DNA of 64,000 nt, taken from NCBI RefSeq assembly GCF_019008365.1, contig NZ_JAHHUL010000013.1, positions 1 through 64,000 of the forward strand, in the 5' to 3' direction. The translations under genes were made by a program, and so were the position numbers. How positions within the stretch are numbered: the first letter of the stretch is position 1; every line of letters starts with the position of its first letter. The notes beneath the pieces are model-generated. The model was not told the DNA's origin. It searched no databases and saw only the letters and a list, made by a program, of their open reading frames with translations. Shown here piece after piece: positions 6,027-62,692 of the stretch. The DNA is from Phosphitispora fastidiosa (lineage in GTDB: Bacteria > Bacillota > Thermincolia > Thermincolales > UBA2595).

Positions 6027-6102
6027 TGGTGACCCCTACGGGATTCGAACCCGTGTTACCGCCGTGAAAGGGCGGTGTCTTAAACCGCTTGACCAAGGGG
6101 CC
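6027..6102 (-). tRNA. tRNA-Glu (anticodon TTC)
   Basis: Acceptor GGCCCCT/AGGGGTC, anticodon loop CTTTCAC between CCGCC and GGCGG, T-loop TTCGAAT, encoded CCA at 6027-6029. Six bases after tRNA-Lys, co-transcribed. Confidence 0.96.
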
Positions 6103-6107
6103 ATAAA

Positions 6108-6183
6108 TGGTGAGCCATGCTGGGCTCGAACCAGCGACACCCTGATTAAAAGTCAGGTGCTCTACCAACTGAGCTAATGGCTC
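6108..6183 (-). tRNA. tRNA-Lys (anticodon TTT)
   Basis: Acceptor GAGCCAT/ATGGCTC, anticodon loop CTTTTAA between CTGA and TCAG, T-loop TTCGAGC, encoded CCA at 6108-6110. Confidence 0.96.
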
Positions 6184-11294: not shown

Positions 11295-12596
<1,302 letters not shown>

Positions 12597-48800: not shown

Positions 48801-49519
48801 AATATCGCACCTCCTTTTTGTTATTCACCCTTTACAAACCCTAAAATCAATCATTTGGTATCAGTTTTACCTCAGTCCAGAGACATACATACAAAATTAT
48901 ATATTAATCATACTATAACGTCAAGGGCAATAGCTGGATTACCTTTTCTTCCAATAAAAATTAACTTTGCCAATTGTGTATAACTTTTAAATTAATTGTT
49001 GATAACATACCTGAAATTTGATATCATTAACTTACCAAAATTAAGACAAGCCTGATTTTTATTCCAGTTGGGCTTTTTATATGTTTAGACGATGAGTACT
49101 GTCTATTACATTAATTAATATTACAGTCTGGGGATAGAATGTGAATAAATGATATCTTCTAAACTTTAATACCATTTTTACAAATGGTATTTTTGTTTCT
49201 CTTTTGGCCTGTATTAAATTAATATATTAAAAATCCACAGTTATTTTTTATTGTGTATAAACTGTGAATAACTCATCTAATTTTAAGTCCTCCGGGCCTC
49301 TAAGGCACGTAGTAATATTTCACAAATTCTCTTTTTGTTTTTTTTATAATGCTCCTTAAGCCTTGATACTTATAGGCTTTCAACACCTAAACCCGGAGTA
49401 TAATCGAAACAAACCCAGATAAATCAAGTGTTTTTCAAGATTATTTTGTAATTGTGGATAACTTTTAGTATTTATTCTTAATAGTAAATAATTGTTTTTC
49501 TTTTCTAGGAGGTTTTACT
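48801..49519. other. oriC: oriC, rpmH-dnaA intergenic part
   Basis: About 720 bases of AT-rich DNA with no gene and several DnaA-box-like nonamers: TGTGTATAA at 48975-48983 and 49252-49260, TGTTGATAA at 48997-49005, TGTGAATAA at 49263-49271 and the perfect TGTGGATAA at 49454-49462. Long A/T runs (48590-48630, 49190-49270) are candidate unwinding sites. Two promoters diverging to rpmH and dnaA are expected but were not resolved. Confidence 0.85.
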
Positions 49520-58237: not shown

Positions 58238-58808
58238 ATATTTTTCAGAAAAATATCAGATAATAGAAGGAATTTTTGATGTAGATGCGAATAGAATTAA
58301 CTGAAACAAAAAATCCACACATTAAAAAGAAAAATAAAGTCCCGAGGCAAGAGTCCCGCGACAAAAAGTCCAGAGACCGGTTTGTTAACCGGTCTTTCCT
58401 TATGGGATTACCAACTTAATTAGCCGCATTTTTTGTCGAAAAAACACAGAAAAAGGAATATTTTTCTTTAATAAAAAAACAAGGAGTTTTATCTTAGCGT
58501 AAGAATACAATATAATAAGCACATAAAAACACAAAGCTGCGCGGCATTTGTGAAAAGTGACACTAACTCTCACAAAAAAAAGAGGATTTTCCAGAACAAT
58601 GAAGAAGTGTACACAAATCAATACACCATGAGAGTAAGAGATTCTTTGGAAAAGCAATGTTTTAAAATGGCCTTGTAAAATACATAAGTCATAGTGTCTG
58701 CGAATCGGTTAACACTTTGGGGGGAAATCAGAATATTCAGGCAATGTACAGGAGATGTAGGATTTTGTACAATTGGAAAAGTCTTATAGAATATTGGAGG
58801 GATGGAGA
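58238..58808. other. gyrA-com1 intergenic region
   Basis: About 570 AT-rich bases between gyrA and the first zinc-ribbon gene. It includes the first copy (A) of the tandem GTCC element and terminator (58339-58401), which also ends the gyr transcript. The remaining 400 bases have no accepted gene; a weak -35/-10 pair TTGTAC/TAGAAT lies about 20 bases before the start region of com1. No other structure was identified. Confidence 0.55.
58339..58401 (+). promoter_or_regulatory. tandem GTCCNGAGRC element copy A with terminator
   Basis: Three boxes: GTCCCGAGGC (58339), GTCCCGCGAC (58353) and GTCCAGAGAC (58368), then the terminator stem GACCGGTT/AACCGGTC (58375-58394) followed by TTTCCTT. The last three bases GAC of box 3 are the first three of the terminator stem, so the two structures compete. 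Confidence 0.75.
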
Positions 58809-58994
58809 ATGCTAGATGTAAGATGTGATTGCGGAAAAATAGTTTGTCAGTCAGACCATGAGTTTGTGGTAATAAAGTGTCGCCACTGTAAAAGGTTTGT
58901 TTTTATAAAAGCAGAAGATAATAAACTCTCAATTTCACCGCACTTGATTAACAGGGTGAATAGTCATCATCGCAATTGTCATAAGACAATGTAA
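58809..58994 (+). CDS. small zinc-ribbon protein resembling phage Mu Com
   Basis: 61 residues from ATG 58809, eight bases after GGAGG. VRCDCGKIVCQ (Cys-x-Cys and Cys) and IKCRHCKRFVF give a four-plus-cysteine zinc ribbon, the pattern of Mu Com-family proteins. Com binds the mom mRNA leader and activates translation; an RNA- or DNA-binding role here is inferred from the fold only. Closely related to the gene at 59262. Element B starts five bases after its stop. I do not recognise a named family member in bacteria. Confidence 0.75.
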   Translation: MLDVRCDCGKIVCQSDHEFVVIKCRHCKRFVFIKAEDNKLSISPHLINRVNSHHRNCHKTM

Positions 58995-58998
58995 AGTA

Positions 58999-59048
58999 GT
59001 CCGGAGACTTTCGAGTCCAGAGGCCAGCAAAATATGCTGGCCTTTTTT
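58999..59048 (+). promoter_or_regulatory. tandem GTCCNGAGRC element copy B with terminator
   Basis: GTCCGGAGAC (58999) and GTCCAGAGGC (59015), 16 bases apart. GAC-T-TTCG-AGTC between them makes a UUCG-type hairpin. Stem GGCCAGC/GCTGGCC (59022-59042) followed by TTTTTT. Overlap of box 2 with the terminator stem is conserved. Confidence 0.8.
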
Positions 59049-59100
59049 CATCCCTAAAATATAGAGAAGTATTAAACAACTAAAAAGTAAAAGCCCGAAA

Positions 59101-59147
59101 GTCCAGAGACGAATCAGTCCAGAGGCCAGCGAAGATGCTGGCTTTTT
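59101..59147 (+). promoter_or_regulatory. tandem GTCCNGAGRC element copy C with terminator
   Basis: GTCCAGAGAC (59101) and GTCCAGAGGC (59117), then GCCAGC/GCTGGC (59125-59142) and TTTTT. Copies B and C stand in tandem between the two zinc-ribbon genes. Confidence 0.8.
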
Positions 59148-59261
59148 GTATACCTTGATGGGGAGGTGACCCATAAAAACCATCTTATGGTTCCGGAAGG
59201 AGTGTTTACAGGCATCCACCGGTAAAGGGGGTAAAACTATTAGCAAAGAAGGTGAATTTTT

Positions 59262-59435
59262 ATGGAAAATGTCAGGTGCAGATGTGGCAAGATTGTTTGT
59301 CAGTTGAAGGGAAATGTAGTTTTGGTAAAGTGCCGTCACTGTAAAAGATTTGTTATCCTCGAATTTGCCGATCCTGAAGGCCAGGACGGTGAAACAGCGC
59401 TAAAGCAAAACAGACCAAAAATTGAATACAAATGA
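59262..59435 (+). CDS. second Com-like zinc-ribbon protein
   Basis: 57 residues: VRCRCGKIVCQ, then VKCRHCKRFV, same spacing as the upstream paralogue, with a divergent charged C-terminus (DPEGQDGET). Below 60 residues and so easily missed. An upstream AGAAGG is 8-12 bases before the ATG. Stop TGA 59433-59435; element D begins five bases later. Tandem duplication with the gene at 58809. Confidence 0.75.
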   Translation: MENVRCRCGKIVCQLKGNVVLVKCRHCKRFVILEFADPEGQDGETALKQNRPKIEYK

Positions 59436-59439
59436 GATA

Positions 59440-59504
59440 GTCCGGAGACAAAAAGTCCAGAGGCCAGCAAATGTATGCTGGCTGATTCTGTAAGGCCAGT
59501 TTTT
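59440..59504 (+). promoter_or_regulatory. tandem GTCCNGAGRC element copy D
   Basis: GTCCGGAGAC (59440) and GTCCAGAGGC (59455) with GAC-AAAAA-GTC pairing between them. The GCCAGC/GCTGGC stem (59463-59482) lacks an adjacent T-run, but CTGGC (59478-59482) can instead pair with GCCAG (59495-59499), followed by TTTTT. Confidence 0.7.
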
Positions 59505-59600
59505 AGTTTGTTCTGATTCGGACTTAAAGGTCCAAGGTAAAGCAACCGGGTATTTTTTCGGAAGGTAGTGAACTGGTTCCTTGAAAGGAGGGGCTATTGT

Positions 59601-59798
59601 ATGAAAACTATGTTTTTGCTAATTATGGTATTGATTCTTTTATTCAGCTTCTGTATCAGCGGGTATATATCCTTTTTCAAGTTTCCGTTACGGGACCCCA
59701 AATTAAAAGTGGTGGTTTTCATGATGATCGGTGCGGCTGCTTCAGCATTTACCTTTATATTATGTCTTACTGTTATATGGCCGCCTGTAATGATGTAA
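59601..59798 (+). CDS. small two-helix membrane protein, paralogue 1
   Basis: 65 residues from ATG 59601 with AGGAGG nine bases upstream. Two hydrophobic helices flanking a basic/acidic loop FFKFPLRDPKLK; ends LTVIWPPVMM. Shares the C-terminal IWPPVM with the next gene. Family unknown. Placement before the cytochrome genes suggests a membrane partner of the respiratory complex, by inference. Confidence 0.75.
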   Translation: MKTMFLLIMVLILLFSFCISGYISFFKFPLRDPKLKVVVFMMIGAAASAFTFILCLTVIWPPVMM

Positions 59799-59829
59799 AA
59801 AAATTGTTTTAGGGAAGGGGGGAAGGCTA

Positions 59830-60024
59830 ATGTCAGCTCTGTTTATAATTGGTGTATTATTAATTGTCCTCTTTGGTTTCAGTGTCAGTGCTTATCTTAC
59901 ATACTATAAGTTTTCTATTCAAAACTTTATTGGTAAACTGGTGGTATTCGTGTTACTGGGTGTGATTTTCTCAACTGTAACATTCACTATTTCCTTAACA
60001 TTGATTTGGCCGCCGGTAATGTGA
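59830..60024 (+). CDS. small two-helix membrane protein, paralogue 2
   Basis: 64 residues, MSALFIIGVLL start with GGGAAGG and GGGGGAAGG upstream. Two helices with YYKFSIQNF between and ending LTLIWPPVM. Same length, order and C-terminal motif as the preceding gene, from a tandem duplication. Family unknown. Confidence 0.75.
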   Translation: MSALFIIGVLLIVLFGFSVSAYLTYYKFSIQNFIGKLVVFVLLGVIFSTVTFTISLTLIWPPVM

Positions 60025-60047
60025 CGAAACCTTTTAAAGAAATACCC

Positions 60048-60104
60048 GGACTTTAGTCCTGAGGCAAACCAGTCCAGAGGCCAGCATCCGATGCTGGCGT
60101 TTTT
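60048..60104 (+). promoter_or_regulatory. tandem GTCCNGAGRC element copy E with terminator
   Basis: GGAC-TTTA-GTCC hairpin (60048-60059), boxes GTCCTGAGGC (60056) and GTCCAGAGGC (60072), GCCAGC/GCTGGC stem (60080-60098) and GTTTTTG. About 20 bases before the seven-heme cytochrome start, so it lies in its leader. Confidence 0.8.
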
Positions 60105-60124
60105 GTGAACAAGAAAGGGGTGAG

Positions 60125-61018
60125 ATGCTCATGGGCACAAATAAAAGCTGCACCGCAAAAACTCTTGTTATAGCCACACTTGTTGCAGTAATTTGTCTTG
60201 CGTTCGGTCCGGCTGCTTTCGCAGAAGACCTGCTCCAGAAGGCAGTTATTATAAATGAAGGATGCTTACGCTGCCACGCAGCCCAGGGGTTAAATGCCAA
60301 TTTTGACGGTAAGACCGTATCCCTTTATGTGGATAAGGCTAAATATGAGGTTTCCATGCATGGTACAATGCCATGTACCTATTGCCACACCAATATTACG
60401 GACTACCCTCATACCGGGGCCTTAAAGGGAAAAGCGCTTGCTGCACAGGTTAACGGCGAATGCCGCAGGTGTCATAAAGATGTAGCTCCTGATTACAACA
60501 AGAGTGTGCATGGGCAGGTGAACAGCGCCGAAGGCAGGCTAAATGCATTTTGCAGTGACTGCCACGGCATTCATAATATTTATAAAAAAGAGGTTGCTGA
60601 AGCAACCATTAATCACAATCAAGTACCACACACCTGTGGTAACTGTCATGAAGAACTATTGGAGCAATATGAACTTGATTTTCACGCAAAAGCAGTTCTT
60701 TTAGGCGGCAAAGAAGCTGCCAGCTGTGTTAGCTGTCACGGCAGCCATAATATTCTCGGCCCAGAAGAAAAAGAGTCAATGGTGTCTACTGAAAACACCC
60801 CCAAGACTTGCGCTAAGTGCCACCTCTTCCCCCTGGAGAACTTTGCCAAGGGAAAGATGCATTATAGTTTAACACCCACAGGTGATGGGGCTGTATCGTT
60901 TTGGGTATTGATTGTTTTTTCGTGGCTGGTAATAGCATGTATTAGCTTTGTTCTAATATGTATATTGCTTGAGCTGCGCCGTAAATGGGCTGATGTTAAC
61001 AAGCCTGGCAGTCATTAA
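60125..61018 (+). CDS. seven-heme c-type cytochrome, membrane-anchored
   Basis: 297 residues. Signal peptide with likely cleavage after AFA (about residue 33), seven CxxCH heme sites (Cys47, 84, 113, 143, 171, 201 and 229), then one C-terminal membrane helix (256-282). Electron carrier on the outer face of the membrane. The start ATG 60125 or the in-frame ATG 60131 follows AAAGGGG. Followed by a cytochrome b, consistent with electron flow from quinol to the cytochrome. Confidence 0.93.
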   Translation: MLMGTNKSCTAKTLVIATLVAVICLAFGPAAFAEDLLQKAVIINEGCLRCHAAQGLNANFDGKTVSLYVDKAKYEVSMHGTMPCTYCHTNITDYPHTGALKGKALAAQVNGECRRCHKDVAPDYNKSVHGQVNSAEGRLNAFCSDCHGIHNIYKKEVAEATINHNQVPHTCGNCHEELLEQYELDFHAKAVLLGGKEAASCVSCHGSHNILGPEEKESMVSTENTPKTCAKCHLFPLENFAKGKMHYSLTPTGDGAVSFWVLIVFSWLVIACISFVLICILLELRRKWADVNKPGSH

Positions 61019-61077
61019 TGAGATTCAGGAGAGGCAGTTAATTATCCCGGATAATAAAAGGGGAGTAGGTGATAATT

Positions 61078-61848
61078 ATGGCTGACATTAATTCCGGTTT
61101 TCCGCAAAGCAAAACAGTTTATCAGCGTTGGAACATACACCACCGCCTGGTACACTTTGGAATTTACGCTCCGTTTATTCTATGTGCTATCACAGGATTG
61201 CCTATTAAATTCCATCATAAAGGCTGGGCACAAGCTCTTGCTTCCTTTTTCGGCGGCGGGGATGGACTCTTATTTTGGCACCTGCTTGCGGGAGTATTGA
61301 TTTTTTTAACCTGTATTTACCATTTAGGGTATTCGCTTCTTTGGGCCGTCAAGTATCGCCATAATTTGACGATTCCGATGCTGCCATGGGCAAAAGGGAC
61401 ATGGACGGCTTTGAAACAGTATTTTGCCTACCAGTTGGGCAAAAGTGACGAACATCCTAAATTTGGGCGCTACCAGTGGAAAGAGATGTTTGACTACTGG
61501 GCGGTTTTCTGGGGGATGTTCATGATTGGTGGGTCCGGTCTTTTGATGTGGTTCCCGGAGTTTACGTTTCAGTATTTTCCCAAGTGGTTTGTTGATGCTT
61601 ATCGGTGGGCTCACAGTGATGAGGCTGTACTTGCAGTGGTCTTTATTTTCACCTGGCATTTCTATAATGTTCATTTCCAACCTGAATTCTTCCCTATGAG
61701 CTGGGTATGGTGGGATGGAAAAATGTCTGTAGATACTATGGAACTTGAACATGGATTGGAATTGGAAATGCTTACGGAACAACAGCAGGAGATGCCAGGA
61801 AGGGGAACAGTTTCTTCTCCAAACAAAAAGTTTCCCAGTTCTGGTTGA
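61078..61848 (+). CDS. cytochrome b-type membrane subunit (FdnI/NrfD-side type)
   Basis: 256 residues from ATG 61078 (an upstream frame-open ATG at 61069 adds three residues). Four to five hydrophobic helices with conserved His: RWNIHHRLVHF, WHLLAGVL, HSDEAVLA and FTWHFYNVHF. Resembles formate-dehydrogenase/hydrogenase-type cytochrome b. Carries electrons across the membrane between quinone and the multiheme proteins. Charged 35-residue C-terminal tail. Confidence 0.86.
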   Translation: MADINSGFPQSKTVYQRWNIHHRLVHFGIYAPFILCAITGLPIKFHHKGWAQALASFFGGGDGLLFWHLLAGVLIFLTCIYHLGYSLLWAVKYRHNLTIPMLPWAKGTWTALKQYFAYQLGKSDEHPKFGRYQWKEMFDYWAVFWGMFMIGGSGLLMWFPEFTFQYFPKWFVDAYRWAHSDEAVLAVVFIFTWHFYNVHFQPEFFPMSWVWWDGKMSVDTMELEHGLELEMLTEQQQEMPGRGTVSSPNKKFPSSG

Positions 61849-62062: not shown

Positions 62063-62692
62063 ATGAGATTTATAAAATTAATGGTGGCAATGTTTGCAGT
62101 GGCTGTAACAGCAGCATTCTTGTTCAATATTCAGGCATTTACAGATAAGAGTTTTAACAAAGAAGTGGGGTTTTGTGCCAACTGCCATGAAATGAAACCA
62201 AACTATTATACCTGGCTGGTGACATCTCACAATCAATTTGGCTGCTTAAGATGTCATCAGGATATCACAATTGGTACCTTTGCGTACAAACACTGGAGAA
62301 ACGTTATACCAGCACCTGTTGAGAAAAAAGGCATAATTCCAGACGATGTCTGCAGGTCGTGTCATACCAACACCCGTAATGTTTCTCCGCCCGGTGATAT
62401 TATTTTCCCTCATGAATTGCATGTTGTTAAGCAAATTGACTGTGTTGACTGTCACAGCAATGTAACCCACCTTCACGTGTCAGAGTATATTAAAACTAAT
62501 TACATAGAAAAGCAGAAGGAATTTACACCGGCTGTGTTTACAGACACCCAGGCAAAACAACTTATTAGAAAAGATAATCAGATATTGATGCCGGTGTGTA
62601 TGCGCTGCCACAACGGGGACATGGCAACAGATGCCTGCAATGCATGCCATAAAAATATCAAAGCAGAAGATAAAATCGTTGTTAAGGAATAA
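62063..62692 (+). CDS. six-heme NapC/NrfH-like cytochrome c
   Basis: 209 residues. N-terminal membrane anchor (residues 4-22), six CxxCH sites (Cys38, 61, 97, 127, 179 and 192). The first site is CANCHEM, the CxxCHxM of NapC/NrfH quinol dehydrogenases with its Met ligand. Typical NrfH has four hemes, so this is an extended type. Accepts electrons from menaquinol for the extracytoplasmic heme chain. Strong AGGAGG upstream. Confidence 0.92.
   Translation: MRFIKLMVAMFAVAVTAAFLFNIQAFTDKSFNKEVGFCANCHEMKPNYYTWLVTSHNQFGCLRCHQDITIGTFAYKHWRNVIPAPVEKKGIIPDDVCRSCHTNTRNVSPPGDIIFPHELHVVKQIDCVDCHSNVTHLHVSEYIKTNYIEKQKEFTPAVFTDTQAKQLIRKDNQILMPVCMRCHNGDMATDACNACHKNIKAEDKIVVKE

Follow-up and report, generated by a model that had tools for sequence, protein, structure and literature searches.

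The RAT antiterminators of the BglG/SacY/LicT systems are short imperfect hairpins with an internal loop, their 3' side being common to the terminator, and the loop of the PyrR attenuator holds the run CC-N-G-N-GAG. The ANTAR targets (EutV/eut, NasR and AmiR) consist of two small hairpins with hexanucleotide loops that carry A in position 1 and G in position 4 (PMC3369931). Concerning the small zinc-ribbon protein Com of phage Mu, its RNA site has been described as CC(N)2-3GAG beside a C-G closing pair, with the GA being essential; two site motifs bind Com better than one, and the protein opens a neighbouring inhibitory structure in the mom mRNA (PMC6483171). In two crystallised duplexes, a pair of Com motifs face each other and form A-C pairs (PMC6483171); as to whether hairpin or duplex RNA is preferred by Com, the published studies are at variance.

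The window—i.e. the whole stretch of 64,000 nucleotides analysed here—originates from Phosphitispora fastidiosa, a Thermincola-like member of Bacillota with a genome of 4.09 Mb. It contains five tandem-box elements on the forward strand, before and between two com-like genes, a pair of small membrane proteins and a seven-heme cytochrome; when the box positions were checked, all five were found where the preliminary description had placed them. The E-values in the following list refer to R1, a covariance model in which the boxes are represented as sequence only and the terminator alone is paired, the model thus being blind to any pairing of the boxes.

58339..58404, + strand: copy A, after gyrA and before com1; boxes 58339-58348, 58353-58362 (one mismatch) and 58368-58377; terminator stem GACCGGTTTGTTAACCGGTC 58375-58394 and T tract; E 2.9e-13
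58809..58994, + strand: com1, 61-residue Com-like zinc ribbon (CxC...CRHCK), candidate factor
58999..59048, + strand: copy B, between com1 and com2; boxes 58999-59008 and 59015-59024; terminator stem 59022-59042 and T tract; E 1.2e-20
59101..59149, + strand: copy C, between com1 and com2; boxes 59101-59110 and 59117-59126; terminator stem 59124-59143 and T tract; E 3.3e-17
59262..59435, + strand: com2, 57-residue Com-like zinc ribbon, candidate factor
59440..59504, + strand: copy D, downstream of com2 and upstream of the membrane pair; boxes 59440-59449 and 59455-59464; stem 59462-59483 with a poor T tract; third arm GGCCAG 59494-59499, then TTTTT 59500-59504; E 5.6e-17
59601..59798, + strand: small two-helix membrane protein, target; no Pfam family, conserved downstream of elements
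59830..60024, + strand: second small two-helix membrane protein, target; no Pfam family, conserved downstream of elements
60056..60105, + strand: copy E, before the seven-heme cytochrome; boxes 60056-60065 and 60072-60081; terminator stem 60079-60098 and T tract; E 9.0e-15
60125..61018, + strand: seven-heme c-type cytochrome with a C-terminal membrane helix, target; seven CxxCH motifs, Cytochrome_C7 and related families
61069..61848, + strand: cytochrome b561-type membrane protein (Ni_hydr_CYTB, E 5e-10), probably in the same transcription unit as the seven-heme cytochrome
62063..62692, + strand: NrfH/NapC-like multiheme cytochrome, probably in the same transcription unit as the seven-heme cytochrome

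The box, as derived from 81 distinct elements of this and related genomes, reads AGTCC-N-GAG-R-C, the preceding A being found at 164 of the 168 boxes and position 9 being A or G without exception, with any base permitted there by the search. The linker between boxes covers 3-10 nucleotides, most commonly 5. Sites matching the box with at most one mismatch number 33 in the whole window, compared with 12.9 ± 3.6 in shuffled sequences. The middle box of copy A, GTCCCGCGAC, deviates from the box by one mismatch; the same position in a genome of the same genus (G001) is occupied by the exact box GTCCCGAGAC. A lone exact box, GTCCAGAGAC, is also present at 48875-48884 of the window, upstream of dnaA, and has neither a second box nor a clear terminator beside it (model E 0.7).

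Within its own genome, the tandem pattern gave six matches, versus none for the reversed-pattern control, and nine elements are recognized in total, five in the window and two on each of the contigs C1 and C11. Related genomes, in which the preliminary description had advised a search, yielded abundant matches: the exact tandem pattern occurs in 28 of 398 Bacillota genomes (the reversed control having three isolated matches in all), full-length R1 matches with E < ~3e-6 are present in 30 genomes, and relatives in about 15 bacterial families contribute some 100 further elements. The named carriers include Thermincola, Carboxydocella, Candidatus Frackibacter and Candidatus Acetocimmeria. Viral contigs gave no match to the tandem pattern. 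Genome-wide pattern matches in Streptomyces, Bacteroidetes and others were set aside, many of them being devoid of a terminator and resembling simple repeats or chance. The opinion that the motif is not a recognized riboswitch holds, since no Rfam family matches it: at the gathering score, only tRNAs were found in the window, and the Rfam matches with E up to 10 are at chance level, with nothing relevant among them. In the open literature, searched also for the literal box sequences, no earlier description of the elements was found.

With regard to the terminator half of the element, the last box enters the 5' arm of a terminator-like stem in every copy, as originally proposed, the arm being GACCGGTT in copy A and GGCCAGC in copies B-E, and the end of the box varies together with the stem between A and B-E. 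The terminator attributed to each copy is present in A, B, C and E; for copy D that view was corrected, the T tract right after its stem being poor and a third arm lying downstream. Among the 81 elements, the R of the last box faces the 3' arm of the terminator as a G-C pair in 60, an A-T pair in 18 and a G-T pair in 3 cases, with zero mismatches, and the changes in the terminator pairing are two-sided in 15 cells, versus 3.3 in shuffled data (37 distinct elements). This comparison shows the last box to form part of the predicted terminator. The box remains intact beside stems as unlike as GGCCAAG and GACCTAA, and box and stem are thus separate constraints having three nucleotides in common.

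The preliminary description had proposed mutually exclusive structures resembling two-hairpin antitermination, with the GRC of one box pairing with the GTC of the next, and had pointed to covariation of these pairs as a check. Covariation was found, and it upholds the mutual exclusivity; the two hairpins are not retained, since the alternative structure is one single nested hairpin. The pairing proposed originally—the first GRC with the last GTC—forms its inner helix, the first GTC pairs with the last GRC as the outer helix, and a symmetric CNGA/CNGA internal loop is left between them. The 136 R1 matches in the examined loci provided 21 distinct elements with altered arms, which represent ten distinct arm sets and, because some are from related genomes, fewer than 21 independent events. 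The nested fold is complete in 20 of these 21, whereas hairpins internal to the boxes are complete in 11; nine fit the nested fold only and none the box-internal one only, and permutation of the arms resulted in p 0.002 for the nested and 0.94 for the box-internal fold. The arm set GCC..GAC..GTC..GGC was seen at three separate loci and GTC..GGC..GCC..GAC also at three; further divergent sets are GTC..AGC..GCT..GGC and GCC..GAA..TTC..GGC. It should be noted that canonical elements cannot separate the two folds, because their GTC arms are invariant, and that a comparison of 18 variants was given no weight, being drawn mostly from a scan that required the nested fold. The box-internal mini-hairpins, which had been the first model, were rejected, as the extension into their flanks had no support and the neutral R1-based test favours the nested fold.

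The nested hairpin would exclude the terminator because it removes the three nucleotides of the last-box GRC from the terminator stem; both folds covary and this GRC is common to both. Judged from comparative sequence analysis, the element is a widespread predicted antiterminator/terminator switch, new to the literature searched. That the copies might be nothing more than constitutive terminators, duplicated along with a conserved sequence leading into them, would agree with the strong intrinsic terminator in each of them and with the several copies in tandem; it is nevertheless very improbable, given that the boxes are constant while the terminator stems vary, that the arms of the boxes covary in a fold excluding the terminator, that the same kinds of genes lie downstream in about 15 families, and that a plain terminator has no need of two boxes at fixed spacing.

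The mean calculated energies amount to -15.4 kcal/mol for the terminator, -2.2 for the nested fold and -0.8 for the two mini-hairpins. With the terminator being stronger than the nested fold by ~13 kcal/mol, a ligand would be needed, and since the box fold is weak alone, the choice by a protein or a small ligand, envisaged originally, is plausible. The cost of the bound state in the window copies is 3.7 (A), 10.6 (B), 7.8 (C), 0.5 (D) and 3.8 kcal/mol (E), so that termination would be the expected default and the ligand would have to act before the 3' arm of the terminator is made. In four of these copies, the bound fold costs 4-11 kcal/mol at equilibrium, and the factor should therefore act during transcription.

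The third arm of copy D (GGCCAG-TTTTT, 59494-59504) is able to pair with the 3' arm instead. A third arm of this kind, followed by T's, occurs in 13 of the 81 elements, compared with 0.3 expected, the set including the counterparts of copy D in two genomes of the same genus. Since the bound state is predicted to form the third-arm hairpin, binding may stop transcription at copy D, and the three-arm subset suggests a switch with reversed polarity. Copies A, B, C and E would, on this view, be simple antiterminators, copy D possibly terminating when bound. These third arms, in copy D and 12 others, fit also the idea that Com-like proteins bind the elements but mainly repress, either by stabilised termination or by blocked translation, with the copies serving autorepression: a sequestered first arm would favour the downstream terminator, and repression of the own gene is frequent among small RNA-binding proteins. 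Such a role as the main one is, however, distinctly unlikely, because 68 of the 81 elements have no third arm found and the bound fold breaks their sole terminator.

Among the known antitermination systems, the ANTAR targets resemble the elements in several respects, both having tandem conserved segments upstream of several genes within a locus, the last of which overlaps an intrinsic terminator on its 5' side, as well as a short linker and a presumed protein dimer (PMC3369931). They differ in that ANTAR targets form two hexaloop hairpins, whereas the present elements form a single nested hairpin with the CNGA/CNGA internal loop; the loops read C-C-N-G-A-G or C-N-G-A and do not show the ANTAR hexaloop with A1 and G4. 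Like the RAT, the elements would be short hairpins sharing their 3' side with the terminator, but the sequence differs, the loop is symmetric, there are no sugar-transport targets, and a CAT_RBD protein is absent from the own genome, being present in 2 of the 16 genomes tested. With the PyrR attenuators they have in common the protein-controlled attenuation, but pyrimidine genes are not among the targets, and the PyrR attenuator family (RF00515), with no match at the elements, matches contig C23 of the genome instead. The assumption that a known factor—an ANTAR protein, a BglG/LicT-type protein or PyrR—acts on the elements could be based on the tandem conserved segments with the terminator overlap, on the short nested hairpin and, for PyrR, on the CC-N-G-N-GAG run; all three were rejected as a general factor on the grounds of genome distribution and RNA matches, so that a role for any of them is hardly conceivable unless relatives in the genomes concerned escaped recognition. 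No ANTAR protein was found in the element carriers G047, G381, G075 and G090, three of which have 2-6 elements or completeness above 93%, two of the four being Frackibacter-type genomes that are 99% complete.

A different candidate is offered by the genes adjoining the elements, which encode zinc ribbons of 50-60 residues with invariant CxC and CRxCK. In 32 sequences, the cysteines C6, C8, C24 and C27 as well as R25 and K28 of the second knuckle are invariant, the cysteines aligning with those of phage Com, where the first motif is CxxC instead of CxC. The relation to Mu Com is remote in sequence, both being small Com-type zinc ribbons: the PHROG gpCom profile was matched by 26 of the 32 sequences (best E 2e-4), and hhalign of the family against six phage Com sequences (Mu and relatives) gave 95.9% with E 5.8e-9. 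For the Pfam family PF10122 (Zn_ribbon_Com), com1 and com2 are below the gathering score and there is no match in the whole genome; an intermediate Com-like group in G177 scores 23.9 against the cut-off of 22.9. A fold search with the predicted structure of com1, which is poor (mean pLDDT 68), yielded no match with an E-value of 0.001 or below.

As far as the distribution is concerned, a Com-like gene is present in 26 of the 28 exact-motif genomes among the 398, the two exceptions being 61% and 63% complete (Fisher p 3e-27 by genome and 3e-15 by family), and in 28 of the 30 genomes with full-length R1 matches, where the exceptions are MAGs about 60% complete. The genome G175 has a Com-like gene and diverged elements, with the exact motif absent, and genomes with CKK-type Com-like proteins only mostly do not have canonical elements. 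This co-occurrence could partly reflect the com genes being the commonest targets.

In its core, CC(N)GAG, the box is similar to the Mu Com site CC(N)2-3GAG, the spacing being N1 here versus N2-3 in the published site; since the box was defined before this comparison, the resemblance may count as independent support. The nested CCNGAG against CCNGAG would be a one-molecule counterpart of the facing motifs in the Com crystal duplexes, and the C-G closing pair and the neighbouring inhibitory structure appear common to the Mu Com site and the elements. On the other hand, Mu Com activates translation, whereas transcription termination is the predicted step for the elements, and it serves phage DNA modification, whereas the elements precede chromosomal respiratory genes.

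The Com-like zinc ribbon whose gene adjoins the elements is thus a well-supported candidate, and the best one, for the ligand. That the switch is real but its ligand is a small molecule, metal, heme or unrelated protein, with the com-like genes as merely frequent targets, deserves some weight, as the structural evidence does not name the ligand and the Com-like proteins are only distant relatives of Com. It is, however, rather unlikely in view of the Com-like gene in nearly every element-bearing genome, of the box core and facing arrangement recalling published Com sites, and of the size of the conserved part—two CNGA segments—which would be too small for a typical riboswitch pocket.

A second Com-like type, CxCNRLIC...IEIKCxKCKR, was observed at the loci L183-L190 (G248, G080, G230, G134, G303, G177, G077 and G294), in genomes without these elements; one of these proteins exceeds the Pfam Com cut-off, and the genes are probably prophage ones. 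At L239:5144-5195 (minus strand), a diverged element stands before another small zinc-ribbon gene (CKCGQIHTNAD...CRRCSRR), possibly another Com-like branch.

Taken together, the comparison of sequences brings out both the terminator and the alternative fold, as well as the link of the elements to com genes, and we infer that Com-like proteins bind the elements, their binding leading to read-through. It is proposed, with moderate confidence, that the elements are protein-dependent antiterminators, their nested fold being stabilised by a Com-like zinc ribbon in a positive loop. When the factor is missing, the last box would contribute its GRC end to the 5' arm of the terminator and transcription would stop; if the two boxes fold back on each other, three nucleotides would be lost to the terminator stem, and this weak nested fold would be stabilised by the Com-like protein (com1 or com2), probably as two molecules with one CC(N)GAG half-site each. 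In the positive loop, the protein would allow RNA polymerase to reach the com-like genes themselves, those for the small membrane proteins and the multiheme cytochromes, and targets at a distance. To our knowledge, little has been established on how multiheme cytochromes carrying electrons out of the cell are switched on in Gram-positive metal reducers, and their control becomes directly testable with a transcription switch for which a candidate protein can be named. If the proposal is true, the Com family, so far a phage curiosity whose RNA site is disputed, would become a class of antitermination factors encoded on chromosomes, and the symmetric Com-RNA duplex of the crystals would have its natural single-molecule equivalent in the tandem elements.

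The genes following the elements encode Com-like proteins, two-helix membrane proteins of 64-70 residues, multiheme cytochromes, MFS transporters and a chelatase-like AAA/vWA operon, and furthermore NuoK (in Frackibacter-type genomes), a FeMo-Co-binding-like protein and a small protein that, judged by eye, resembles an accessory subunit of ATP synthase; energy metabolism suits most of them. On contig C1 of the own genome (G000; L010:7373-12468), two elements are located before and inside an operon that encodes a chelatase-like AAA ATPase together with two vWA proteins, and its tie to cytochromes is not obvious; dense low-complexity CTCCTGTCTCCTGACTCC-like units were seen there just upstream of an element (L010:7040-7290 and 6080-6120). 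On contig C11 (L235:5639-5793, minus strand), two successive elements precede an MFS transporter, as they do also at L118, L120, L121 and L237; in these pairs the last box of the second element has GCC for GTC.

Elements with variant loops stand directly before CKK-type com-like genes (L110:11618-11672 and 11887-11950; also L193, L201, L203 and L205). Their loops TATA/AAAA, CGGGA/CCAAA, TTTA/AAAC and AGAAA/GTAA replace the canonical one, the arrangement as two nested helices and the terminator overlap being kept. Non-canonical terminators fitting the nested fold account for 11 of 75 within 300 nt upstream of com genes, versus 38 of 3172 elsewhere. It may tentatively be suggested, though this is more doubtful than the proposal made above, that paralogous Com-like proteins read different internal loops, providing parallel and diversifiable chromosomal switches for electron-transfer genes. 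It should finally be mentioned that the model matches at L241:3357-3432 and L242:4536-4605 are followed by a common AACCCCATCTTACCTTTTTTT stretch and a perfect inverted repeat, ATCCGCCAGTAACTGGCGGAT.
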